This document shows positions 6,088 through 31,836 of a stretch of 64,000 nucleotides of DNA, piece after piece. Within the stretch, counting starts at the first letter, position 1, and each line of letters begins with the position of its first letter. The notes under the pieces were generated by a model. That model saw only the letters and a list, made by a program, of their open reading frames with translations, searched no databases and had not been told where the DNA came from. A program made the translations under genes and the position numbers. This DNA comes from Elusimicrobiota bacterium (GTDB taxonomy: Bacteria; Elusimicrobiota; Elusimicrobia; UBA1565; UBA9628): assembly GCA_003151975.1 (NCBI GenBank), contig PLZD01000027.1:62001-126000 (forward strand). Direction: 5' to 3'.

Positions 6088-7362
6088 TTAAGGAAGCTCC
6101 TCGTCGGCGATCTTAAGCTGCAGCGAGTCGATCTTCATCTGGATGAGAATCTGGTCGAAGGAGGTCTTGGCCGAGATCAGGGAGTTGAGCGCGGTCATCA
6201 CGTCGAGATTGTTGACGAGGCCAAGGCGATATTCCTTGTCCTCGACGCGGTAAGTCTCGTCGGCCTTCACATAGGCGCGTTCGGCCGCCTCGGCGCTGGC
6301 CACCGCGGCGCGCAGCGCCACGAACGCGCTGTGTATGTCGGTGCGCGCCTGGCGCAGCTGCAGCTCGAGGTTGTACTGCGCCTGGCTGAGCTGGGATTTG
6401 GCCTGGCGCACGGCGGCGAGCTGACCGCCTCCTTGATAGAGCGGGACGCTGCCGCTGACGGCCGCGTCCCAGCTGACGGGCGCGAGGAAGGTGGTCCTTT
6501 TGGTGTAGTAGTTGCCGAGGAAGCTCACCGTCGGAAAGAAGGCGCCCTTGGCGAGCTGAATCTGGTCCTCCTGCGATTCCACGGTCTTGCGCAGCGAGCG
6601 GACGTCGGAGCGGTCGAGCGCGCGTCCCAGGGATTGCTCCTCGGCGCCGAGAGCCCGAACTCGGTCCATCTTGTCGGCGAGCTTGGCCTGACCCATATCC
6701 TTTCCGGTCAAGAACGAGAGCACCGAGCGGGCGGCGTCGATCTGGCCTTTAATGACCTCGGCCGACGCCTCGAGGGTCGCCTCTTGCGATTCGACCAAGG
6801 TCACCTCGCTGTGCCGCGACTTGCCGAGCTCCTCGAAATGCTTGAGCTCCTTGAGCCTTTTAGTGGCCAAATCGACGGCCATGGTCGTGTCGGCGAGCTG
6901 CGTCTCCAGATTGAGCACGAGGTAAAACGCGTTGACGACGTTTTGATAGACCACCGTATGCGCGTGCCGCAGGCTTAGTTCGGCCGCTTGGCCTTGATGT
7001 TTGAAGGACTTCATCGCGGCGAACTCGCGGAAGCCGGAGAAGAGCGGCTGCGCGAGGCTGAAGCCGATGTTGGGCTGAGGGCTCGCGAAGAAGACGCCTC
7101 CGCTGGCGGCCAAAGGAGAAGAGGTGTCCTGCCACTTCTCCTGGGCGAAGAAATTAAGGTTGGGCAGGGCCGAGGCGAGCACCTGCTTGTACTGCTGCTC
7201 GAGCTGGTAGATCTGCTGCTCCTGCATGCGCAGGGATTCGGCCTGCTCGACGGACCACGCGTAGCATTGCGAAAGATCGGCCTCCGCGGGAGGGGGGATC
7301 TGTCCGAACGACTCGGCGCGCGCCATGCCGGAAAAGAGAGCCAACACGAGGAGGAGGCTCAT
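6088..7362 (-). CDS. TolC-family outer-membrane efflux protein (first of two)
   Basis: 424 residues with a short signal peptide (MSLLLVLALFSGMARA). The two-repeat helical OEP layout is clear: 'ALPNLNFFAQEKW', 'QPLFSGFREFAAM' and later 'GAFFPTVSFLGNYY' with 'VPLYQGGG' mark the beta-strand/helix junctions of each half. Its ATG overlaps the TetR stop as ATGA, and its own stop abuts the RND start, so regulator, channel and pump are translationally coupled. The channel would serve the RND pump downstream. Confidence 0.9.
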   Translation of the reverse strand: MSLLLVLALFSGMARAESFGQIPPPAEADLSQCYAWSVEQAESLRMQEQQIYQLEQQYKQVLASALPNLNFFAQEKWQDTSSPLAASGGVFFASPQPNIGFSLAQPLFSGFREFAAMKSFKHQGQAAELSLRHAHTVVYQNVVNAFYLVLNLETQLADTTMAVDLATKRLKELKHFEELGKSRHSEVTLVESQEATLEASAEVIKGQIDAARSVLSFLTGKDMGQAKLADKMDRVRALGAEEQSLGRALDRSDVRSLRKTVESQEDQIQLAKGAFFPTVSFLGNYYTKRTTFLAPVSWDAAVSGSVPLYQGGGQLAAVRQAKSQLSQAQYNLELQLRQARTDIHSAFVALRAAVASAEAAERAYVKADETYRVEDKEYRLGLVNNLDVMTALNSLISAKTSFDQILIQMKIDSLQLKIADEELP

Positions 7363-7949
7363 CGGCCGGCTCCAGCACCCTTAAGATAGAAATCGAGGAC
7401 TTTCTCCGCCTGGTCGGCCAGGGGGTCGTCGGAATGGCTCATTATTTTCTCCATCATCGCGGCGCGGCAAAGCCCGAACAGGGCCAAGGTCTCGTAGGCC
7501 GCGCCTTTTGTTTTTGCGCCGCGGTGCGGCAGAGCGGCGGAGAGGATGCGCGAGACTTTCTCATTATTCTCGCGGAACTTCTCCATCAGGCGTCCGCACG
7601 AGCGGGCGCCGCAGGAGGGGAACTTGCCGATGCCGAACTGGGACATGAAGTCCTTGTTGTCCTCGAAGCTGCTCAGGATGCAGATCACGGCCTTCTCCAA
7701 CAGCGAGCGGCCCTTGAGGCCCGTGGCCAGCGTCTCCTCCAACGAGCGCCCGAGCCGATCGACGAAATCCGAATAGGCGGCCGTGAAGAGCTCGTCCTTG
7801 TTCTTATAATAAAGGAAGAGCGTGCCCTTGGCGACGCCGGCCTCGCGCGCGATGTCGTCCAGCGCGATGTCTTGAAAGCCGCGCGCGGCGAGCAGGCGCC
7901 GCGCCGCGTCCAGGATGAGAAGCTTCTTGTCCTCTAGCACTTGGGCCAT
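7359..7949 (-). CDS. TetR/AcrR-family repressor of the efflux operon
   Basis: 196 residues. The N-terminal TetR helix-turn-helix is unmistakable: 'ILDAARRLLAARGFQDIALDDIA' then 'REAGVAKGTLFLYYKNKDEL'. The C-terminal ligand domain is divergent and contains a 'PSCGARSCG' cysteine pair. It is the first gene of the efflux operon and its start lies one base from a perfect palindrome, so autorepression relieved by a pump substrate is the obvious model. ATG at 7949 is preferred; an in-frame ATG at 7970 lies inside the operator and would precede the expected transcription start. Confidence 0.92.
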   Translation of the reverse strand: MAQVLEDKKLLILDAARRLLAARGFQDIALDDIAREAGVAKGTLFLYYKNKDELFTAAYSDFVDRLGRSLEETLATGLKGRSLLEKAVICILSSFEDNKDFMSQFGIGKFPSCGARSCGRLMEKFRENNEKVSRILSAALPHRGAKTKGAAYETLALFGLCRAAMMEKIMSHSDDPLADQAEKVLDFYLKGAGAGR

Positions 7950-7950
7950 A

Positions 7951-7970
7951 ATGACTGACTGGTCAGTCAT
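7951..7970 (-). promoter_or_regulatory. TetR-type operator palindrome
   Basis: Two perfect 9-base arms, ATGACTGAC and GTCAGTCAT, are separated by two bases. The palindrome covers the predicted transcription start and ends one base before the tetR start codon. TGAC/GTCA half-sites are common for TetR-family repressors. Placement immediately downstream of the -10 box would block initiation. Confidence 0.85.
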
Positions 7971-7999
7971 ATGATACCAATCCGCGGTGCAAGTGTCAA
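7971..7999 (-). promoter_or_regulatory. Sigma-70-type promoter of the efflux operon
   Basis: On the minus strand the sequence reads TTGACA (7999-7994), 17 bases, TATCAT (7976-7971). This is a consensus -35 with optimal spacing. The start site would fall around 7964, inside the operator, giving a leader of about 15 bases without a clear Shine-Dalgarno sequence. Confidence 0.85.
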
Positions 8000-8012
8000 T
8001 CCGCGCCGCGCC

Positions 8013-8041
8013 TTGTTTTTGTAACACAGTCCGGCTACAGT
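8013..8041 (+). promoter_or_regulatory. Promoter of the coiled-coil gene
   Basis: TTGTTT (8013-8018), 17 bases, TACAGT (8036-8041), the -10 being preceded by GC as in many promoters of this window. The ATG follows 22 bases later. It is divergent from the tetR promoter and only 13 bases from its -35 box. Confidence 0.55.
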
Positions 8042-8063
8042 ATCGCGCTACCGGCACCATATA

Positions 8064-11000
8064 ATGGAAGACAAGCCACAGACGCATACGCCGCAGGAGA
8101 TTCTGAGCGTCGACACGATCCAGAATCTCGACACGGCGCGCATGGCCCTGCGCTGGGCCCTCGAGCGGATGCACAAGCTCGAGCAGGAGAAAGCGTCTCT
8201 CGCCGACACCGCCGCCGAATCCGAGCGGGGCAAGTCGCGGGCCCAGGAAGAATACGCGGCCATCCAGAAAACGCTTTCTTCGCGCTCGGCCGACGCCGAC
8301 CAGCGCGAGCTCTACTACTCGAAGATGGAGGAGTACCTCTCGCTCCAGCTCGGCGGCAAGCTGGATCTCGCGGGCCTGGGCCGGCGCGAGCTCGAAGTCA
8401 GCCGGCTCCAGGAGCTGCTCTCCCAAAAAGAAGTGGCGCTGCAGCGCGAGCTGACCGCCAAGCGCGCCTCGCTGGAGCGCGAGGTCGAGAAGCTCAAAAC
8501 CGATCTCGAGGCGCATAGCCGTTCCAAAACGCGTTCGGTCGAGCAGGCCTACGAGCTCAAGCGCTCCTCTCTTGAGGCCGACTATCTCTCGCGCATGGCC
8601 AACGTCCACGAGAAGGAAATCCTGCACAAGCAGGAATCCGCGGCCCTGGCCGAGCGCCAAGCCCATTTCGAGCATTACTACTCGACGCAGCGCGCCCAGC
8701 TTCAGAGCCAGGTCAAGAATTTCAAGGCCGAGGTCGACGACCAAGTCGACTTCCGCCTCAACATCTCCGAGAAGATCGTCGCCGAGCGCTACACGGGGCT
8801 CGAGGCGGCGTGGAACCAGGAGAAGCAGCTGCTGGTGCGCGAGCTCGAGTCGTGGCGCGCCAAGGCCACCGAGGCGGGCCCCCGCGCGCTCGATCTCGAC
8901 AAAGCTCTTTCGATGGCCGAGGAGCGCGCACGGCACGCGCAGTCGATGGCCGACCGCCAAGCTTTGCTCATCGCCGAAGTCCGCCGCCAGGGACGCGACG
9001 CCGACCTTGCGGCGCAAAATCGCGAGAAGGCCTTGGCCGATGAGCGCGCCAAACTGGCCGGCGAACTGGGCCGTCTTCTGGAAGAAACCGCGCGCCGCGA
9101 GGCCGTGATCGCCGAACTGCAGAACCGCATGCCGATGCGCCTCAAGAATTGGGAGCATGCCCAGGCCGACGCCAAAGAGCTTTTCCTGCGCTGCGACGAG
9201 CAGCAGACCAAGATCGCCGAGCTCCAGCGCGATTTGGAAGCCGCGCGCAACGAGGCCGCGGGCAAGTCCCTGCGCGCCGGCCGCGAGGAGACCCTGCGCC
9301 TCGAGCTCGAGAAGCAATTCTCGGACGAGCGCCTTGCGTTGAAATCCGAATTGGCCCACGGCCAGGAACAAATCAACAATCAGGCCGCGCGCCTCGGCGA
9401 GATGGAGGCGCGGCTGCTGGAAAGCCGCAAGCAGCATCAAAACGAGGCTTCCGCCGCGGCTCTGCGGGGCCTCTCTCTCAACGACGAGCGCCAGCGCTCG
9501 GAAGAGCTCCGCCGCGACCTCGAAAAGCGGCTCTCCATCGTCGAGGACGCTTACCGCAACGCGGAGATCATGGCGCAGCAGGCCGGAGAGCGGCTCGCCG
9601 AACGGGAAAAGGCCGCGCGCGCCGAGGAAACCGCGCTGGCCGCCGAGATCGGTTCCTTGCGCGAGCGCCTCGAGGCCGCGGTCTCCGCGGGCCGCGACGA
9701 CGCGCGCCAAGCCGAGGCTGCGGACGAAGTCCGCCGCCGCCTCGTGGACGCCGAACGCAATCTCTCCGTGACGCAGGACGCCCTGACCCAGGCGCAAGCG
9801 GAAATCCGCCAAACGCAGGAGCGCTTCGAGGCCGGCAAGCAATCCTCGGACGAGGCCGGAGCCTCCGCGGTCCGCCGCGAGGAGACTCTGTCGAAAGAAA
9901 TCGGCGCGCTCAAGGCCGAGCTTGTCCGCGTTCAGGAAGAGTCGCGCGGCCGCGCGGCCCGCTTGTCCGAATTGGAAAGCACCGTCCCCGGCGCGGCCGC
10001 GGCCGCCCGCGAGCAGACGCGGGGCGCCGTCGAGATGCAGGCCGCCGTGTTCGAGGAAAAGCGCCTGGCCTGGGAGGAAGAGAAGGAAGTCCTGCTTTCG
10101 GAACTCGGCGAGTGGAAAGAGAAGCTCTCCGAGAGCGTCGACCAGGCCGCCGCGCTGGAGAAGAGCCGCCGCGCCGCCGATGTCTCTTCTCAGCGCGCCG
10201 ACGCGGGGCTTGCCGCCGCCCACGAGCGCCTGTCCCGGCTCGAGGCCGAGCTGGCGGAGTCGCGCGGACGCGAGCAGGAGAACCTCGCGCGCTTCCTCAT
10301 CGTCGCCAAGAGCATGGCCAAAGCCGAAGGCTCGCAGACCGCCATGGCGGAAATCGAGAAGTCGCTGGCCGGAGCCATCGACGCGGCGCGCCAGGCCGAC
10401 ACGCGCGCCGCGATAGAGAGCGAGGAGCGCCAGAGCCTCGAGGCCCAGAAGCGGCTCCTGCTCGCCGAGCTCGGGCACTTGAAGGACAAGCTCTCCGAGC
10501 GCCAGACTTTGGCCGGCGCCCAGCTTCACGCCCAGCTCGAGTCGGAATTGTCCGCCGCGCGCGAGCGCGCCGACCGAGCGCAGCGCCGCATCAACGAACT
10601 CGAAGCCGCACGGACCGAAGCGCAGGACGCGCAAGCCCTTAAGGCGGAATTGGAGGAGACCAGGCAAGCGGCGGCGCTCGCCAACGAGCGCGCGCGCCAT
10701 GCCGAGGCCGAGGCCGGCCGCCACGCCGCGACCCTGGAGGCGCATCGCCGCGGGACGCAAGTCGAAGCCGAGGCTCTCGCCGCGGAGCGCGATGCGGCCC
10801 GCAAGGAGAACGCCAAGATCTCGCTTCTGCAGAAAGCCGCGGCGCTTGCCGAAGAGCGCGCGCGCCAAGCGGAGGCCGCGGCCGACCGCCAGGGCGCGAT
10901 TCTCGAGGAGCACCGGCGCGCGGCGCTGTCCGAGGCCGCGGACCTGGCCGACCAAAAGACGACTTTGCTGGCCGAGCTCGGCCGGCTCAAGGCGGAGCTC

Positions 11001-20463: not shown

Positions 20464-21798
20464 ATGAGAAACAGACACATCTCCCTCGCCTCACTCATTG
20501 CGTTGTCCGCGGCTTTGCCCGCGGCGTCTTCGATTCCCTCGTCGGGCCGGCACGGCGGCAAGGTTTTCCACGCTTTCAAGACGAGGCTTAAGCCAGCCGC
20601 CCCCATGGACGCGTTCCATATGGGAATGCAGGACATCGACAACCGCCAGTACGATTCCGCCGTCGCTCAGCTTTCCAAGGCCGTCGCGCAGCGCCCGTCG
20701 GCCGCGCGCTATTTCATGCTCGGCTACGCGCATTATTCACGCGGCTTCGCGAGCGGCACGCCCGAGACCGCCAATAAAATGGACGCGGTCAAGGTCGTCG
20801 AAAACTACAAGGCGGCCCTCGCCCTCGATCCCAAGTTCAAGGAGATCAAGCAGCCCTACAAGCTCTACCACGGGCTCGGCATGGCCTACGAGGCGCTCGG
20901 GATCAACGACAAGGCGCTCACTTCGTACCGCCAAGCTTTCATGCTCGCTCCGACCGATCTCGCCTTGCCGATCTACGGCGCGCGCCTGCGCATGAAGATG
21001 GGCGCGACCAGAAAATCGCTGGCTAATTTCGAAATGGCCCTCAAGCTCGCCAGCCAAAGCGGCCAGCAGGCCTCCATCCAAGCCTTCTTGAAGTCCAATC
21101 CGATGTTCAAGGACATGCTCAAGGATCAGGCCCACTCCGATCTCGTCGCCAAGTACGAAGCTCCCATCTCGCCCGCCAACGGCCCGTCGGCGGCACCCCA
21201 GCCTGCCGGCTCGCTTGCCAACATGGTCGCGATGGAGCCGATGATCCCTCCGGGTGATCCGTTCGGTCTGCGCGACTCCGTGCGCAGCCCCACGCGCCCC
21301 AAGCCCGCAGCAGAGCCTAGCGCCGCCGAGCAGGAAGTCTTGCAGGCCATCGCCGCGGGCAACGACGAATTTAAATTCCGGCACTGGGCCAAGGCGATCG
21401 ACCGGTACGATTGGGCGCTGTCCTTGAGCAGGCACTCCCAGACTTTGGGCCCGGGCGAGATCGCGTTCGTCAACGAGCGCATCGGCACCGCCTACAACAA
21501 GGTCGGCCGCACTTCGGAGGCCGTGACCAGCCTGCGCCTCTCGGTGATGGCGATGCCCTATAACTGCGCCGCGCATTATCAGCTCGCCTTGGCCTACAGC
21601 CTCTCCGGCCACTACGCCGAGGCGACGAAGTCCCTGCGCGAGGCGCTCAAGACCGCGCCCTCGCCCAGCGAGCTGCGCAAGACCGTCCTGCTCGCCAAAA
21701 CCGATTCCGAACTCGAGCCCCTGCGCGACCTTCCGGCGTACAAGGCCGCGATGCAGGAATTCGCTCCGGCGCCGGCCTCCTCCCAAGCCCGGCGCTAG
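20464..21798 (+). CDS. Secreted TPR protein
   Basis: 444 residues from ATG 20464, which begins a signal peptide (MRNRHISLASLIALSAALPAASS). TPR units are visible at about residues 40-75 ('FHMGMQDIDNRQYDSAVAQLSKAV'), 105-160 ('GLGMAYEALGINDKALTSYRQAF') and again in the C-terminal third ('RIGTAYNKVGRTSEAVTSLRLSV', 'ALAYSLSGHYAEATKSLREAL'). A Pro/Ala-rich linker (about residues 235-290) separates the two TPR blocks. It probably acts as a periplasmic scaffold. It lies directly before the Crp/Fnr gene and shares a regulatory element with the Cys-repeat peptide gene, so the three may form one functional unit. Confidence 0.8.
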   Translation: MRNRHISLASLIALSAALPAASSIPSSGRHGGKVFHAFKTRLKPAAPMDAFHMGMQDIDNRQYDSAVAQLSKAVAQRPSAARYFMLGYAHYSRGFASGTPETANKMDAVKVVENYKAALALDPKFKEIKQPYKLYHGLGMAYEALGINDKALTSYRQAFMLAPTDLALPIYGARLRMKMGATRKSLANFEMALKLASQSGQQASIQAFLKSNPMFKDMLKDQAHSDLVAKYEAPISPANGPSAAPQPAGSLANMVAMEPMIPPGDPFGLRDSVRSPTRPKPAAEPSAAEQEVLQAIAAGNDEFKFRHWAKAIDRYDWALSLSRHSQTLGPGEIAFVNERIGTAYNKVGRTSEAVTSLRLSVMAMPYNCAAHYQLALAYSLSGHYAEATKSLREALKTAPSPSELRKTVLLAKTDSELEPLRDLPAYKAAMQEFAPAPASSQARR

Positions 21799-21849
21799 CC
21801 CAGCCGCCGGAAAAATTGTTATCCTTTCTCCAAGTTCGGGGAAACCCTT

Positions 21850-22557
21850 ATGCCTTTTACAAAACGCGACGCTCCCAATTGCGAGTGGTGCCCACATAAG
21901 AAGAACTGCTTGTACGAACTCTTGGGCACGAAAGAATCGAAGAAGGCCTGGCGCGAGATGCGCCTGGCCAACCCCTTCAAGTCCGGCGAGGTCGTCTTCC
22001 ACGAAGGCACGATGCCGCAGGGCGTCTACGTCGTGTGCAAGGGCAAGGTCAAGATTTACAAATCGAGCCGCACGGGCCAGCAGCTGATCACGCGCGTCGA
22101 GTCGCCCGGTGACCTCGTCGGCCACATCAGCCTGCTCGCCAAAGAAGGCGCCTACACCGGCACGGCCGAGGCCCTCGAGCCCGCGACCGTCTCCATGGTC
22201 GACGAGCGCACGTTCGTCGACTTCCTGGCAAAATATCCCGTAGCGTCGTTGGCGCTCATGCGCGAGATGGCCAAGGACGTGCGGCGGGGGGAGAATAAGG
22301 CCCGCGACATCGCCTTCAAGCCCGCGCGCGGCCGCCTGGCCGACACGATGCTGCGCATGATGAAGCCCGGCAAGCCGCACCCGATCGTCGAGGGCCTCAA
22401 GCGCCGCGATCTCGCCGAGATGGCGGGGCTCACCATCGAGACCGCCGTCCGCCTGCTCAAGGACTTCGAGGAGCGCGGCATTCTTCGAAAGAAAGACAAA
22501 GACTTGCTCATCGTCAACGAGCTGCAGCTGCGCTCGATGTCCGCCTCCAGCGTCTAG
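21850..22557 (+). CDS. Crp/Fnr-family transcriptional regulator with FNR-like cysteines
   Basis: 235 residues. The cyclic-nucleotide-binding-type beta-roll spans about residues 40-135 ('FKSGEVVFHEGTMPQGVYVVCKGKVKIY', 'GDLVGHISLLAKEG'), followed by the dimer helix and an HTH_Crp domain ('LKRRDLAEMAGLTIETAVRLLKDFEERGILRK'). The N-terminus has C11-X2-C14-X5-C20, the same spacing as the cluster cysteines of E. coli FNR, and a further Cys63 could complete a [4Fe-4S] site. Oxygen or redox sensing is therefore likely but inferred. The recognition helix differs from FNR. Near-consensus TTGAY-N4-RTCAA boxes lie downstream and a related box lies upstream. Confidence 0.92.
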   Translation: MPFTKRDAPNCEWCPHKKNCLYELLGTKESKKAWREMRLANPFKSGEVVFHEGTMPQGVYVVCKGKVKIYKSSRTGQQLITRVESPGDLVGHISLLAKEGAYTGTAEALEPATVSMVDERTFVDFLAKYPVASLALMREMAKDVRRGENKARDIAFKPARGRLADTMLRMMKPGKPHPIVEGLKRRDLAEMAGLTIETAVRLLKDFEERGILRKKDKDLLIVNELQLRSMSASSV

Positions 22558-22578
22558 CCGCGGCTAGGCCCTCCGACC

Positions 22579-22596
22579 AGGACCCGCCTGGGTCCT
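22579..22596 (+). terminator. Short hairpin after the Crp/Fnr gene (possible weak terminator)
   Basis: AGGACCC-GCCT-GGGTCCT is a perfect seven-base stem with a four-base loop, 22 bases after the stop. Only three T follow, so termination would be weak. Its right arm is part of the conserved GGTCCTTTG block of the Crp/Fnr-like element. Confidence 0.3.
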
Positions 22597-22624
22597 TTGA
22601 CCCAGATCAATTGATTCGCGTCAA
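22591..22624. promoter_or_regulatory. Tandem Crp/Fnr-like boxes upstream of the Cys-repeat peptide
   Basis: TTGAC-CCAG-ATCAA (22597-22610) is followed without gap by TTGAT-TCGC-GTCAA (22611-22624). Each differs from the FNR consensus TTGAT-N4-ATCAA by one base. With the -10 box TATCAT at 22671-22676, the centres are about 80 and 66 bases upstream of the predicted start, suited to class I activation. Confidence 0.6.
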
Positions 22625-22670
22625 GCGATTGCCTTGACCGCTCTCATTTTTTGAGGACCGCCCGCGGCGC

Positions 22671-22676
22671 TATCAT
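22671..22676 (+). promoter_or_regulatory. -10 box of the Cys-repeat peptide gene
   Basis: TATCAT preceded by GC, 32 bases before the ATG. No good -35 is found at 16-18 bases, which fits activator dependence. Confidence 0.45.
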
Positions 22677-22708
22677 GTCTTATCAACGAAACGATAAGGA
22701 GAAAGAAA

Positions 22709-23026
22709 ATGATCAACCTGATTCTCGCCGCGATGCTCAGCCCGATGCTCCAGCCCGCCATGGCCCAGGTCACGACCTGCCAGTGGCCCAACAAGTGCGC
22801 GGCCAAGGCCGAAACGCCGGTCACCACCTGCCAGTACCCCAACAAGTGCGCCGCCAAGAAGCAGCCCGTCAAGGAAGTCCCCGTGACGACCTGCCAGTGG
22901 CCCAACACCTGCGTGTCCGACGTCAAGGCCGTGAAGGCCTCCTTGGTGCCCGTCACGACCTGCCAGTGGCCCAACACGTGCGAGACCCCGGTCCACACCT
23001 GCGATTACCCCAACAAGTGCTCTTAA
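22709..23026 (+). CDS. Secreted peptide of five tandem C-X5-C repeats
   Basis: 105 residues. AAGGAGAAAG precedes the ATG. A signal peptide (MINLILAAMLSPMLQPAMA) is followed directly by five copies of the unit V-[TH]-T-C-[QD]-[WY]-P-N-[KT]-C at residues 21-30, 38-47, 59-68, 82-91 and 95-104. The cysteine pairs are 24/30, 41/47, 62/68, 85/91 and 98/104; linkers are 3-13 residues, Lys/Ala/Val-rich, and each ends in Pro. There is nothing else in the mature protein. I do not recognise a family. Each unit could be a disulfide-closed loop or a soft-metal site. It is followed by a strong terminator, so it is expressed as a single gene. Confidence 0.85.
   Translation: MINLILAAMLSPMLQPAMAQVTTCQWPNKCAAKAETPVTTCQYPNKCAAKKQPVKEVPVTTCQWPNTCVSDVKAVKASLVPVTTCQWPNTCETPVHTCDYPNKCS
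22769..23020 (+). repeat. Five coding repeats of the Cys-Trp/Tyr-Pro-Asn-Cys unit
   Basis: The DNA core coding for T-C-Q-W-P-N is nearly identical in the copies (acctgccagtggcccaac in several), with unequal linker lengths of 9-39 bases. Short, exactly repeated DNA with variable spacers implies recent duplication or gene conversion within the gene. It is coding, not a CRISPR. Confidence 0.85.
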
Positions 23027-23047
23027 GATAGTACCCGCCGCTCCGTA

Positions 23048-23094
23048 AAAAAGAAGAGGCCCCGATGATAGAGTCATCGGGGCCTCTTCTTTTT
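23048..23094. terminator. Strong bidirectional terminator
   Basis: Near 20-base arms built on GAAGAGGCCCCGATGA and its complement enclose TAGAG, with T-run on one side and A-run on the other. It terminates the Cys-repeat gene on the plus strand and the convergent secreted-protein gene on the minus strand; the stop of the latter lies at its right edge. Confidence 0.93.
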
Positions 23095-24127
23095 AGGGCA
23101 ACTGAGTGGACTTGATTTCCTCGACGGCGCCCTCGGCGGCCTTGGGGTCGACTTTTGGCGCGGCCGCCGGATGGGCCTTGGTGTAACACGTATCGGGTCC
23201 CAGCCCGAAGTTTGAGCCGGCAGGCACATTCGCGGGAGGAAGCTTCGCCGGCTTGCCGCAGGCGCCGGGTTCGTATTTATATCGGGCGTTGCCGACCTTG
23301 GTGTTGACCTCGTTTTCCCAGTCCTTGTTGCAAAGCGGGTCCGACTCGTGGTCCCAATTAAACGCCAGCGTCAGCTCCACGACATGCGCGTCGTTGAGCC
23401 CGCAGACCCCGCGGCGGTCGCTGAGTCCCGCCGTGGAATGCGCGTCGCTGCTGAAGAAATGGAAGGTCGGGCCCTCGGAATTGGAGACGGGCGACCAGCA
23501 AGGCTCGAAGGCGCCGCCCCAGCAGATCATGTCGCGCTGGTCGAAGGGATCGTGCGGACCGCCCGGGTCGTTGGACTTCTCCCAAATGTTGTAGCCCTTG
23601 GCGCGTTTCGGATTGAGAGAGTCTCCGTCATGGGCCGCGCGCATCGCGGCCAACGCCGCGGCGTCGAAGCCGATGAAAACGCGGTTGGAGTCGTAGCCGC
23701 CGCAGGAGCCGCCGCCGGAGGGCACCGGAGGCGCGATGATATCCGCCAGACCGGAGCCGTTGATGCTGTAAAGCTTGACCGCGTGATCGAGCGCCGCGTC
23801 GTCGCTGGCCGAGGGCGGGGAATGCAGCCGGCTTTCGCAGCTGCCCAGGTACGCAGTGACGACCTCGAAGATGGCTTGCTCGTCAGGGCTCAAGTTGGCC
23901 CACAGCTGGCACGGCTCGATTTTCTGGTGGAGGATCTGCGATTTCTCATCGGCCAGGCTCGCCAGGAGTCTGTCGCGATTTTCGCGCAGCCGAAACGTGT
24001 GCGGCTTGCCGTCGGCGCACACGTCGGTCCCGGGAGCGGGCTTGGATGACGCTTGGTCGGCCGCGCGGGCGGCGGGAAGGAGCAGGACCAGCAGCGCTGC
24101 GACAAAACGCGGAAGAGATCGCTTCAT
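23093..24127 (-). CDS. Secreted protein of unknown function, 344 residues
   Basis: ATG 24127 has GGAGG eight bases upstream and opens a signal peptide (MKRSLPRFVAALLVLLLPAARAA). The mature protein contains nine scattered cysteines and several Gly/Pro/Trp/His-rich segments: 'PSGGGSCGGYDSNRVFIGFD', 'DMICWGGAFEPCWSPVSN', 'GPTFHFFSSDAHS', 'VELTLAFNWDHESDP'. I recognise no catalytic signature or family. The frame is open further upstream through the inverted repeat but without a ribosome-binding site. It is convergent with the Cys-repeat peptide gene and shares its terminator. Confidence 0.75.
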   Translation of the reverse strand: MKRSLPRFVAALLVLLLPAARAADQASSKPAPGTDVCADGKPHTFRLRENRDRLLASLADEKSQILHQKIEPCQLWANLSPDEQAIFEVVTAYLGSCESRLHSPPSASDDAALDHAVKLYSINGSGLADIIAPPVPSGGGSCGGYDSNRVFIGFDAAALAAMRAAHDGDSLNPKRAKGYNIWEKSNDPGGPHDPFDQRDMICWGGAFEPCWSPVSNSEGPTFHFFSSDAHSTAGLSDRRGVCGLNDAHVVELTLAFNWDHESDPLCNKDWENEVNTKVGNARYKYEPGACGKPAKLPPANVPAGSNFGLGPDTCYTKAHPAAAPKVDPKAAEGAVEEIKSTQLP

Positions 24128-24152
24128 GAGACCTCCGAGGGGCTTCCGCATT

Positions 24153-24181
24153 AGCATAGCCCTGCTCGAGGAATTTCGCAA
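24153..24181 (-). promoter_or_regulatory. Promoter of the 344-residue secreted protein
   Basis: On the minus strand: TTGCGA (24181-24176), 17 bases, TATGCT (24158-24153), the -10 being preceded by GC. The leader to ATG 24127 is about 20 bases and holds the GGAGG site. Confidence 0.65.
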
Positions 24182-24224
24182 GGGGCGCGAGGCGCCAATC
24201 ACTCCTCGCCGATTTCCAAATTCT

Positions 24225-24268
24225 CCCTCTAGGGTTTTGTCACTGTTTAGTGACAAAACCCTAGAGGG
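24225..24268. repeat. Perfect 20-bp inverted repeat with 4-base loop
   Basis: Arms 24225-24244 and 24249-24268 (CCCTCTAGGGTTTTGTCACT and its complement) enclose GTTT. It lies in an AT-richer gap between two divergent genes. No adequate T-run follows on either strand, so it is not a standard terminator. It may be a palindromic interspersed repeat or the remnant end of a mobile element, given the IS5-type domain next to it. Confidence 0.8.
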
Positions 24269-24323
24269 GAAAATCAGAAAAATAAATCGGGAACAAAAGA
24301 GGGGGGCAAATCGTATATATATT

Positions 24324-24752
24324 ATGGGTCCCTGGCAAAGCATCGGTCCCGACTGGCCCGGCTTCAGGCCGTGGCATCACAACATCTTCCGCGTTCTCCT
24401 GCCGCGCCCCAAGAAGCCGTTCCTGAGGGCCGAGCGCAAGGGCGGGCGGCCCCGCAATAGCGATGTGCGGAATTTCGAAGCGATCCTCTGGATATTCCGT
24501 ACGAACTGTCCGTGGACCGCTCTGCCAGAACGCTTCGGATCACAAAGGACCGTCTTCCGTCGCCTGCTGTGCTGGCAACGCGATGGAAATCTGCGCAGGC
24601 TTTGGGAATGCTATCTCTCGCACCTGGGGCGCGAGGACTTCGAAGGATGGTGGAAGGTGCTCGAGCGAAATCGACTCAGCCGACAGCCGCTCTGGAAATT
24701 CGAGCTTGATTACATCTACTCCATGCGCGCGGGCCGGCCGCTCGCGACCTAA
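24324..24752 (+). CDS. Solo DUF4096 domain (IS5-type transposase N-terminal part)
   Basis: 142 residues from ATG 24324, just after a TATATAT run. Residues about 47-105 match the DUF4096/IS5 N-terminal domain: 'GRPRNSDVRNFEAILWIFRTNCPWTALPERFG' with the 'W..LP..FG' hallmark, then 'VFRRLLCWQRDGNLRRLWE'. The catalytic DDE domain is absent and the frame ends after a further 40 residues, overlapping the convergent upp stop by four bases. It is either a decayed transposase or a domesticated DNA-binding protein. The intact frame and tight packing with upp argue against very recent decay. Confidence 0.65.
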   Translation: MGPWQSIGPDWPGFRPWHHNIFRVLLPRPKKPFLRAERKGGRPRNSDVRNFEAILWIFRTNCPWTALPERFGSQRTVFRRLLCWQRDGNLRRLWECYLSHLGREDFEGWWKVLERNRLSRQPLWKFELDYIYSMRAGRPLAT

Positions 24753-29417: not shown

Positions 29418-30467
29418 CTATCTTTCAGTCGGCGGATCGACGAGTCCCGCATGCGGCTCGTCCATCAAATTCGTCCGGCCGCCCTCGCCTGCAGCCGAGA
29501 TCACGACGTGGGTCTGCTCGAAGTGGCCGACGACGGTGCCGCGCGGCGACAAGCGAAAGTCCCCGCGCAGCCGAACGCTCTCTCCGGGCCGCAGAAGAGG
29601 GATGTCGCCGCGGCTTGCGTCGGAAGGCAGCAGCCGCCCGGAGCCCTCAGCGACGAACTGCTCCTGGGCCATTGCGATCTGAAGATTCTTGAGCGGCGCG
29701 ACTCCGGTATTGACGACTTCGATTTCGTAATCGAGCCGCGAATCGTGCACGTAGACGGCATAGTCGCCCCAATAGCGCTGAGGCAGGACCTCGTCCCTCT
29801 CTCGCTCTCCGCGACCATCGGCCACAACACAGGTCACCCCCGTCGCGTCGGCGCGGCTGCGGCCCATTGGATTCAAATAGGTCACGCGCAAGCGAATCCC
29901 GCGGCCGACGATCCAGGCTCCCGGCATCGGCTCGATCTTTCCGATAAAGTTTGCGACCACTTCCGGCAGCCAACCGAGGGCGGACCGCGGGGTCGGCTCG
30001 GGCACGATCAGGATGCGATCCTCCGGCGCCCGGGGAGCCGCGGCGTCGGCGGAGGGCGCGGCGGCCGGAGTCTCGGCGGGCAGGCGCGCAAGATCAATCG
30101 GCGCGAAGATGTTTTCGGCCGGCGCGGGATCGCGGAAGATGTTTTTCGCGTTGGACCAAGCCGTCGTCGCGAGCTCCGACGGCAGGCGCCACGCCGAGCG
30201 CACCCAATCGCGGCCCGACAAAAACTCCTCGACGGCGATCTCGCCGAAGGCCAAGACATAGAAGCCCCATTCGGCCGGGGGCTCCACCTTCGGAGCCGCT
30301 GCGGCCTTGACCGGGACCGATTGCAGGGCCTGCATGGACGGCGGCGGCATCATATTCCGCGCCGCCGTCGGAGCCCCGATCATCGCCAGGCTCGCGGCGC
30401 CCGTGGTTTGCGCGGTGAACGAAAACATCACCGTCCAGAGGCAAGCGAGTCTCGCGATTTTTTTCAT
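29418..30467 (-). CDS. Secreted protein with DUF11/CARDB-like domain (paralogue B)
   Basis: 349 residues with a signal peptide (MKKIARLACLWTVMFSFTAQTTGA). The N-terminal 50 residues are nearly the same as in the upstream neighbour: 'ASLAMIGxPxAARNMM', 'PSMQALQ', 'EWGFY.LAFGEIA'. A Pro/Ala-rich middle follows. The C-terminal ~170 residues form an immunoglobulin-like region: 'YWGDYAVYVHDSRLDYEIEVVNTGVAPLKNLQI' and 'PGESVRLRGDFRL', as in DUF11/CARDB adhesion-type domains. I infer an extracellular or surface role. The specific function is unknown. It lies ten bases after paralogue A. Confidence 0.75.
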   Translation of the reverse strand: MKKIARLACLWTVMFSFTAQTTGAASLAMIGAPTAARNMMPPPSMQALQSVPVKAAAAPKVEPPAEWGFYVLAFGEIAVEEFLSGRDWVRSAWRLPSELATTAWSNAKNIFRDPAPAENIFAPIDLARLPAETPAAAPSADAAAPRAPEDRILIVPEPTPRSALGWLPEVVANFIGKIEPMPGAWIVGRGIRLRVTYLNPMGRSRADATGVTCVVADGRGERERDEVLPQRYWGDYAVYVHDSRLDYEIEVVNTGVAPLKNLQIAMAQEQFVAEGSGRLLPSDASRGDIPLLRPGESVRLRGDFRLSPRGTVVGHFEQTHVVISAAGEGGRTNLMDEPHAGLVDPPTER

Positions 30468-30477
30468 CGGCTCGCGC

Positions 30478-31836
30478 TCACAGGTCCGGCGGCGGGTCGA
30501 TCAAGCCCGCCTGATACGCCTCGGCCAGAGTCTCGGTCGTTCCACCGACGCCGCTCTGGGACGTCATCAGCACGTGCGTCTGCTCGAGGCTGCCGTGCCA
30601 AGCCCAGTCGCTCGTGATCTTGAACTGGTTGCGCAGCTTGACGGTCTCGCCGGGGTTGAGCGTCTCGATTTTCTGCACGCCGGCCTCGGTCGGCAAGCGG
30701 CGGCCGGCCTTGCCCTCGCGGCTGAAGACTTCCTGCGCCGCGACGACGGTCATGCCCTTGATCGCCTTGGTTCCCGTGTTCTGGACCTCGACGACATAGT
30801 TTACGGTCTGGCCGTGATTGTAGATCGCGTAGTTGCCCCAATATTCCGTGGGCAGGACCTCGGCCGGGTTCTCGAGCAGCTTGCCCGGCATGTTGTACTT
30901 GAAGCCGGCGCCGTCGGCTTGGCTGAAGCCCACCGGGTTGAGGTAGACGATCCGGAAGCGGATGCCCTTGCCCTGGTTCCAACTGCCCTCCATGCGGGCC
31001 GCGACGCCCTTGTTGAGCCGGCGATGATCGAGCCCCGGCATCTTGAAGGCGAAGGCCTTCGATGGATTCAAGTGGGGGAACTGGCGGATGTTCTTGACGT
31101 CGTTGATGGGATGCGCCAGCGCGCGCTCCGCGTCTTCACCCTGAAGAGTCTGCATCGCGCGGGCGTTCTTCGCGATCTCCGGTTCGAGCGTCACGGGTTC
31201 GAGTCTTCCCGGCAACGGGGGAGTGAAAACCTCCGGGACCTCGGTCTTGTCCTCGGCGACGCCCACGGCCTCGACCGGGTTGACGAGCAGGCCGGAACGG
31301 CTGATCGGCATCTCCTCGCGCACCACGAGCATCGATTGCTGAGGCGCGGCCTTTGCTTCCGGCATCACGATGAGGGGAGCGGGAACGGCCTGCTCCGGCT
31401 GAGCCGGCGGAATCGGCGCCGCCAGATCGATGGGCGCGATCGTCTCGGGAGTCTCGGGCTTCTCTTGAAGGAACTCCGCTCCGCGCTTGAGCGCATCGTT
31501 GGCAGACCTGCGCGCGGCCTGCATGGCGTTATTAAAGGAAGACTTGGCGTGGGCCAAGGATTCGAACGCGATCTCGCCGAACGCCAGGATGTAGAAGCCC
31601 CACTCCGCCGGGACCTCGACCTTGGGCGCGATCTTCTTGGGGGCCGGCGCCGCCTTGATGGGCGCGGGCGCGGCCTTGAGCGGGATCGCCTGCAGGGCCT
31701 GCATGGAAGGAAGCGGCATCATGTTGCGCGCCGCCATCGGGCTGCCGATCATCGCGAGGCTCGCCGCTCCCGTCGTCTGCACGGCCATCGAGAACAGCGT
31801 GATCCAGATCCCGGCCAGCTTGAAGAGCTTTCTCAT
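30478..31836 (-). CDS. Secreted protein with DUF11/CARDB-like domain (paralogue A)
   Basis: 452 residues. Signal peptide MRKLFKLAGIWITLFSMAVQTTGA, then the block shared with paralogue B. Its middle region is about 100 residues longer, with Ala/Pro/Lys repeats ('KAAPAPIKAAPAPKK'). The C-terminal domain reads 'YWGNYAIYNHGQTVNYVVEVQNTGTKAIKGMTVV' and 'PGETVKLRNQFKI', ending 'YQAGLIDPPPDL' against 'HAGLVDPPTER' in B. AGGTGAG precedes the ATG. The pair arose by tandem duplication. No catalytic residues are apparent, so an adhesion or matrix role is more likely than an enzyme. Confidence 0.75.
   Translation of the reverse strand: MRKLFKLAGIWITLFSMAVQTTGAASLAMIGSPMAARNMMPLPSMQALQAIPLKAAPAPIKAAPAPKKIAPKVEVPAEWGFYILAFGEIAFESLAHAKSSFNNAMQAARRSANDALKRGAEFLQEKPETPETIAPIDLAAPIPPAQPEQAVPAPLIVMPEAKAAPQQSMLVVREEMPISRSGLLVNPVEAVGVAEDKTEVPEVFTPPLPGRLEPVTLEPEIAKNARAMQTLQGEDAERALAHPINDVKNIRQFPHLNPSKAFAFKMPGLDHRRLNKGVAARMEGSWNQGKGIRFRIVYLNPVGFSQADGAGFKYNMPGKLLENPAEVLPTEYWGNYAIYNHGQTVNYVVEVQNTGTKAIKGMTVVAAQEVFSREGKAGRRLPTEAGVQKIETLNPGETVKLRNQFKITSDWAWHGSLEQTHVLMTSQSGVGGTTETLAEAYQAGLIDPPPDL

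Follow-up and report, generated by a model that had tools for sequence, protein, structure and literature searches.

Our analysis of a 64,000-nucleotide window of the Elusimicrobiota contig PLZD01000027.1 leads us to propose, with about even confidence, that one of its short genes encodes an exported peptide made of autonomous C-x5-C loops, that this gene belongs to a gene set under Fnr-type control, and that the single loop would be the working unit. The features of the gene, its promoter, and the neighboring regulator are listed in Table 1.

Table 1. Features of the Cys-loop peptide locus, with positions counted from the first nucleotide of the window.
Feature	Position	Strand	Basis
Crp/Fnr-family regulator, N-terminal C-x2-C-x5-C (CEWCPHKKNC) and invariant VVC	21850..22557	+	Pfam, NCBIfam, alignment
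Fnr-like box 1, TTGACCCAGATCAA	22597..22610	+	conserved in homologues' promoters
Fnr-like box 2, TTGATTCGCGTCAA, its centre 23 bp upstream of that of box 3	22611..22624	+	
Fnr-like box 3, TTGACCGCTCTCAT, with its centre near -41.5 relative to the predicted transcription start	22634..22647	+	
-10 element TATCAT; predicted transcription start near 22682	22671..22676	+	spacing in peptide promoters
Shine-Dalgarno AAGGAG	22696..22701	+	sequence
Gene for the Cys-loop repeat peptide (105 aa; five C-x5-C loops)	22709..23026	+	ORF list; homologues
Hydrophobic N-terminal segment (probable signal peptide), MINLILAAMLSPMLQPAMA followed by Q	22709..22765	+	conserved M-x-x-L-I-L pattern; charge count
Loop 1, CQWPNKC (C24-C30)	22778..22798	+	translation
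Loop 2, CQYPNKC (C41-C47)	22829..22849	+	translation
Loop 3, CQWPNTC (C62-C68)	22892..22912	+	translation
Loop 4, CQWPNTC (C85-C91)	22961..22981	+	translation
Loop 5, CDYPNKC (C98-C104)	23000..23020	+	translation
Intrinsic terminator hairpin with T-run	23048..23094	+	fold z-score

The translated product starts with MINLILAAMLSPMLQPAMAQVTTCQWPNKC, ends with CDYPNKCS, and contains exactly ten cysteines and five C-x-[WY]-P-N-x-C loops, with little besides after the hydrophobic N-terminus. An earlier note on this DNA had described five repeats, each opening with VTT. The five loops are present, but VTT precedes only four of them and the fifth follows VHT, so the quoted motif was slightly too strict. 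The same note had held this to be a real, regulated gene with its own promoter, Shine-Dalgarno site, and terminator; all of these were found, and other genera have homologues that are 40-50% identical. The ribosome site and a -10-like element on one side and a highly stable terminator on the other mark the gene as a single-gene unit; the hairpin and T-run of the terminator fold at -43 kcal/mol (z -9.9), a value reached by 0 of 200 shuffled sequences. Neighbors conserved at the locus are the regulator, a TPR protein, and upp, deoA, punA, and transketolase genes. The peptide gene and upp are neighbors in many relatives; between them in the window lies a minus-strand gene (23093-24343) whose 416-aa product matched nothing in Pfam or NCBIfam.

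A single-sequence search recovered relatives of the peptide from 19 of the 44 genomes in its GTDB family (7 of 12 genera), and a profile search recovered them from 40 of 341 Elusimicrobiota genomes (17 of the 100 genera of the phylum). A scan of bacteria and archaea at one genome per species returned 32 loci, all in Elusimicrobiota-type MAGs (30 labelled Elusimicrobia or Elusimicrobiota, two in one MAG labelled just 'bacterium'), and a search of viral contigs and plasmids returned no relative. The family appears, from these searches, to be confined to Elusimicrobiota; nearly all genomes compared were metagenome bins, and absence from an incomplete one is weak evidence. Conservation beyond the contig, the lack of which would have counted against the repeat according to the earlier note, was thus evident in 55 distinct homologues with 172 loops.

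Within the mature parts of these 55 homologues, 344 of 346 cysteines fall in C-x5-C pairs, and WPN-type proteins have 2-5 loops each. The second loop position is Trp, Tyr, or Phe in 167 of 172 loops and the third is Pro in 171, while the fourth is Asn, His, Lys, or Arg in all 172 (mostly Asn; His in 23). The invariant Pro, Val, and Asn of the unit are written with a variety of synonymous codons (CCC, CCG, and CCT for Pro; four codons for Val). Linkers from loop to loop span 13-62 residues, most of them 16-24, and A-Q-[FV]-x-[PT] precedes most units. Paralogues of the peptide occur in tandem. Genera without WPN loops carry SPCSPGHICVxPQIVSPCSPGHIC behind the same promoter (three loci; L137, L171, L174), and a one-loop form, PPPCAINHTCH, stands behind it at two others (L168, L169). 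Because these genera have either two CSPGHIC loops or CAINHTC, the constant element is the C-x5-C spacing, with Pro, Gly, or Asn and then Asn, His, or Arg inside, and not WPN. The precursor at L168 and L169, of about 53 aa, represents this one-loop form at its smallest: its signal segment is long and conventional, and the mature peptide, QDPGPPPCAINHTCH, is predicted to have 15 residues.

The earlier note could name no family with this repeat, and the absence of a described family was supported by searches of Pfam, NCBIfam, PHROGs, PDB sequences, and the literature. Pfam, NCBIfam, and PHROGs gave sub-threshold chance matches only, and our literature search returned no paper on the loop motif and none linking Elusimicrobiota with a secreted regulon. 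A PDB profile match to PIT54 (4.4e-5, no single stretch passing) was read as cysteine-composition bias. Rfam gave no match in window positions 21000-24500. AlphaFold2 returned no usable fold for the peptide (mean pLDDT 41); this low confidence is weak evidence for disorder because the input, an alignment of 12 divergent repeats, was poor.

Export of the peptide is likely, judging from its hydrophobic N-terminus, in which the M-x-x-L-I-L pattern is kept in homologue groups A1 and A2; the cleavage site in Table 1 was placed by eye. It falls short of proof because the N-terminus does not have the usual positive charge: all 50 of 50 homologues have a net charge of 0 or -1 over their first eight residues, so the signal peptide of the earlier note has no positively charged n-region. 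A hydrophobic N-terminus without positive charge makes for an unusual signal peptide, and most of the co-controlled proteins differ in this respect.

The array of boxes upstream of the gene is the same across homologues of other genera. The earlier note had mentioned neither these boxes nor the regulator gene beside them, nor the other exported proteins behind the promoter, the apparent confinement to Elusimicrobiota, or the constancy of C-x5-C rather than WPN. The centre of box 3 lies 30 nt from the start of the -10 hexamer, a spacing shared by most of the promoters, and a -10-like hexamer begins 59-60 nt from the start of the pattern in 31 of 35 peptide promoters. Relative to this predicted -10 element, box 3 is at the class II activator position (-41.5). 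We searched for the tandem-box pattern TTGAYN4RTCAA-N9-TTGAYN5TC[AC]T with the reversed pattern as control. Exact matches numbered 62 in 37 of 335 Elusimicrobiota genomes (control 0), and with one mismatch allowed the pattern occurred in 36 of the 42 genomes of the GTDB family (control again 0). The predicted leader of the window gene is 27 nt long and includes the ribosome site, while many of the co-controlled genes are predicted to be leaderless because the start codon often coincides with the predicted transcription start.

Class II promoters of Escherichia coli Fnr carry TTGAT-N4-ATCAA at -41.5. The Elusimicrobiota promoters resemble them in box sequence and in the -41.5 centring relative to the -10 element, and the two regulators share C-x2-C-x5-C. 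In contrast to the E. coli arrangement, the boxes here are in tandem at about -78.5, -64.5, and -41.5, and the putative targets, many of them predicted leaderless, are mostly uncharacterised exported proteins rather than respiratory genes.

The gene immediately upstream encodes the best candidate for the protein that would bind these boxes. Its product has the Crp/Fnr fold according to its Pfam matches (cNMP_binding, PF00027, 5.4e-20; HTH_Crp_2, PF13545, 2.3e-11), and the three N-terminal cluster cysteines of C-x2-C-x5-C and the cysteine of VVC are invariant in 25 of 25 peptide-linked sequences. Since its score against the NCBIfam Fnr subfamily model (8e-18, 64.6 bits) is below the cut-off of 228, we regard it as Fnr-like and not as an orthologue of enterobacterial Fnr. 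It differs from E. coli Fnr in the fourth cluster ligand: in the region that we take to be equivalent to E. coli C122, the cysteine is not conserved and the residues vary (SMVD, SMID, SMIE; one C).

Of 42 genomes, 36 have the regulator as a single copy, and it adjoins the peptide gene in many genomes, including members of other GTDB families of the order. Three genomes without it (G041-G043) have 0 pattern sites and no match to the peptide profile. In three more (G011, G026, G028) the pattern is present and no regulator orthologue was detected, and three others have the regulator without the pattern, so that the association across genomes is modest (Fisher p = 0.03). The pattern-bearing genomes with no detected orthologue would fit a reading in which a different Crp/Fnr paralogue uses the boxes and the neighboring regulator is unrelated to the peptide, which seems improbable to us given the adjacency kept across families, the joint absence of regulator and pattern in G041-G043, and the fact that the regulator-missing cases include bins that are 62% and 86% complete.

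The products of most other genes with a tandem-box promoter have N-termini that resemble export signals. A crude rule based on hydropathy and cleavage scored 64 of the 71 genes behind the pattern (~90%) as signal-like, against 57 of 187 background gene calls (~30%); the 71 sites include orthologues and so are not independent, a point that the p-value of the comparison overstates. For several of the seven genes that fail the rule, the near-palindromic pattern was read in reverse or an upstream start was chosen. The genes behind the pattern encode Cys-loop peptides, a protein family that we call family X, Pro-rich low-complexity exported proteins, and DUF333-containing proteins.

In the mechanism that we favor, an Fnr-family regulator, most likely the adjacent product, would bind the boxes and activate the peptide gene set while its putative iron-sulfur cluster is intact, that is, presumably at low oxygen. 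The peptide would cross the membrane, and each cysteine pair would close its own loop. The loops, strung on flexible linkers, would probably each bind a partner or take part in redox chemistry independently of the others, either in the envelope or beyond the cell. They may be displayed as a 2-5-valent string or be cut at the recurring A-Q into loop peptides of about 12-20 residues. A bolder version, which we put forward tentatively and consider rather doubtful, is that a whole order of uncultured bacteria has a dedicated Fe-S switch of the Fnr type that remodels exported proteins instead of respiration, and that at its centre stands a peptide of a new kind whose C-x5-C loops are released or displayed as separate units, possibly as an anaerobic signal or effector. 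For a phylum that has seen hardly any experiments, the analysis supplies a family that can be searched for and an exact promoter signature, and the orphan peptide becomes testable as a unit of one regulator, one DNA pattern, and a few exported targets. If Fnr-type control is true, this would be one of few cases in which a regulator of the oxygen-sensor type serves mainly exported proteins, and the loops would offer a new, simple scaffold of defined size.

Whether the loops would be closed bears on a possible if unlikely alternative, namely that the peptide is a thiol or metal buffer of the envelope, whose reduced cysteine pairs bind soft metal ions or scavenge oxidants or nitric oxide at the change between anoxic and oxic conditions, with repeats raising its capacity. 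Disulfide closure is not assured because recognisable DsbB (2 of 42 genomes) and VKOR (1 of 42) are mostly absent, though DsbA-fold proteins were found in 42 of 42. This scarcity suits a buffer, as do the constant pairing of the cysteines, the varying number of loops, the frequent His at the fourth loop position, and a control of the Fnr type, which is fitting for redox stress. However, the conservation of Trp or Tyr followed by Pro far exceeds what metal binding needs, the fourth position is mostly Asn and also Lys or Arg, the conserved neighbors of the peptide gene include none for metal transport or resistance, and Pfam identifies no metal proteins among the co-controlled products.

The possible cutting of the peptide into loops recalls multi-core RiPP precursors, in which each loop would be a core modified by a trans-acting enzyme and then cut out, a reading that we find very doubtful here. 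The near-identical units (2-5 in the WPN type, with A-Q ahead of most), the tandem paralogues, and the single-unit versions are what such a precursor would have, and near-identical short units with variable linkers and copy number are shared with cyanobactin-like RiPPs and repeated-pheromone precursors. In contrast to those, no maturation enzyme is conserved at the peptide locus (our genome-wide search for modifying enzymes covered the MNIO class), and cleavage between units is putative. Bufferins and other exported peptides modified by MNIO (DUF692) enzymes are likewise small and Cys-rich, but the peptide has no sequence match to such families and its locus has neither an MNIO nor a partner protein. 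MNIO (PF05114) occurs in just 13 of 42 genomes; the source genome encodes one elsewhere than at the peptide locus. An MNIO-made product is disfavored by the absence of the enzyme from many near-complete peptide-bearing genomes (among them G001, G002, G014, G019, G023, G025, G027, G039). It is also quite unlikely that the peptide is a surface adhesin or structural matrix peptide whose loops bind a polymer or neighboring cells under anoxia, since multivalent aromatic loops on flexible linkers and Pro-rich low-complexity proteins among the co-controlled exported ones would suit it but the peptide is very small and no anchor was seen (sortase motif, lipobox, or C-terminal signal).

The exported proteins behind the pattern include family X, with a length of about 160-270 aa and conserved cysteines; searches gave it no Pfam match and no relative of solved structure. 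At one locus of the source genome (L106, G000, C13:5000-22000), three paralogues of this family lie side by side on the minus strand at about 7061-9580, within a pyrimidine and purine biosynthesis region. At least two of them stand behind the tandem Fnr-like promoter, and the third behind a weaker match to it. In the window itself, two adjacent minus-strand genes at 29418-31836 have near-identical signal-like starts ending in AQTTGAASLAMIG and are tandem exported paralogues.
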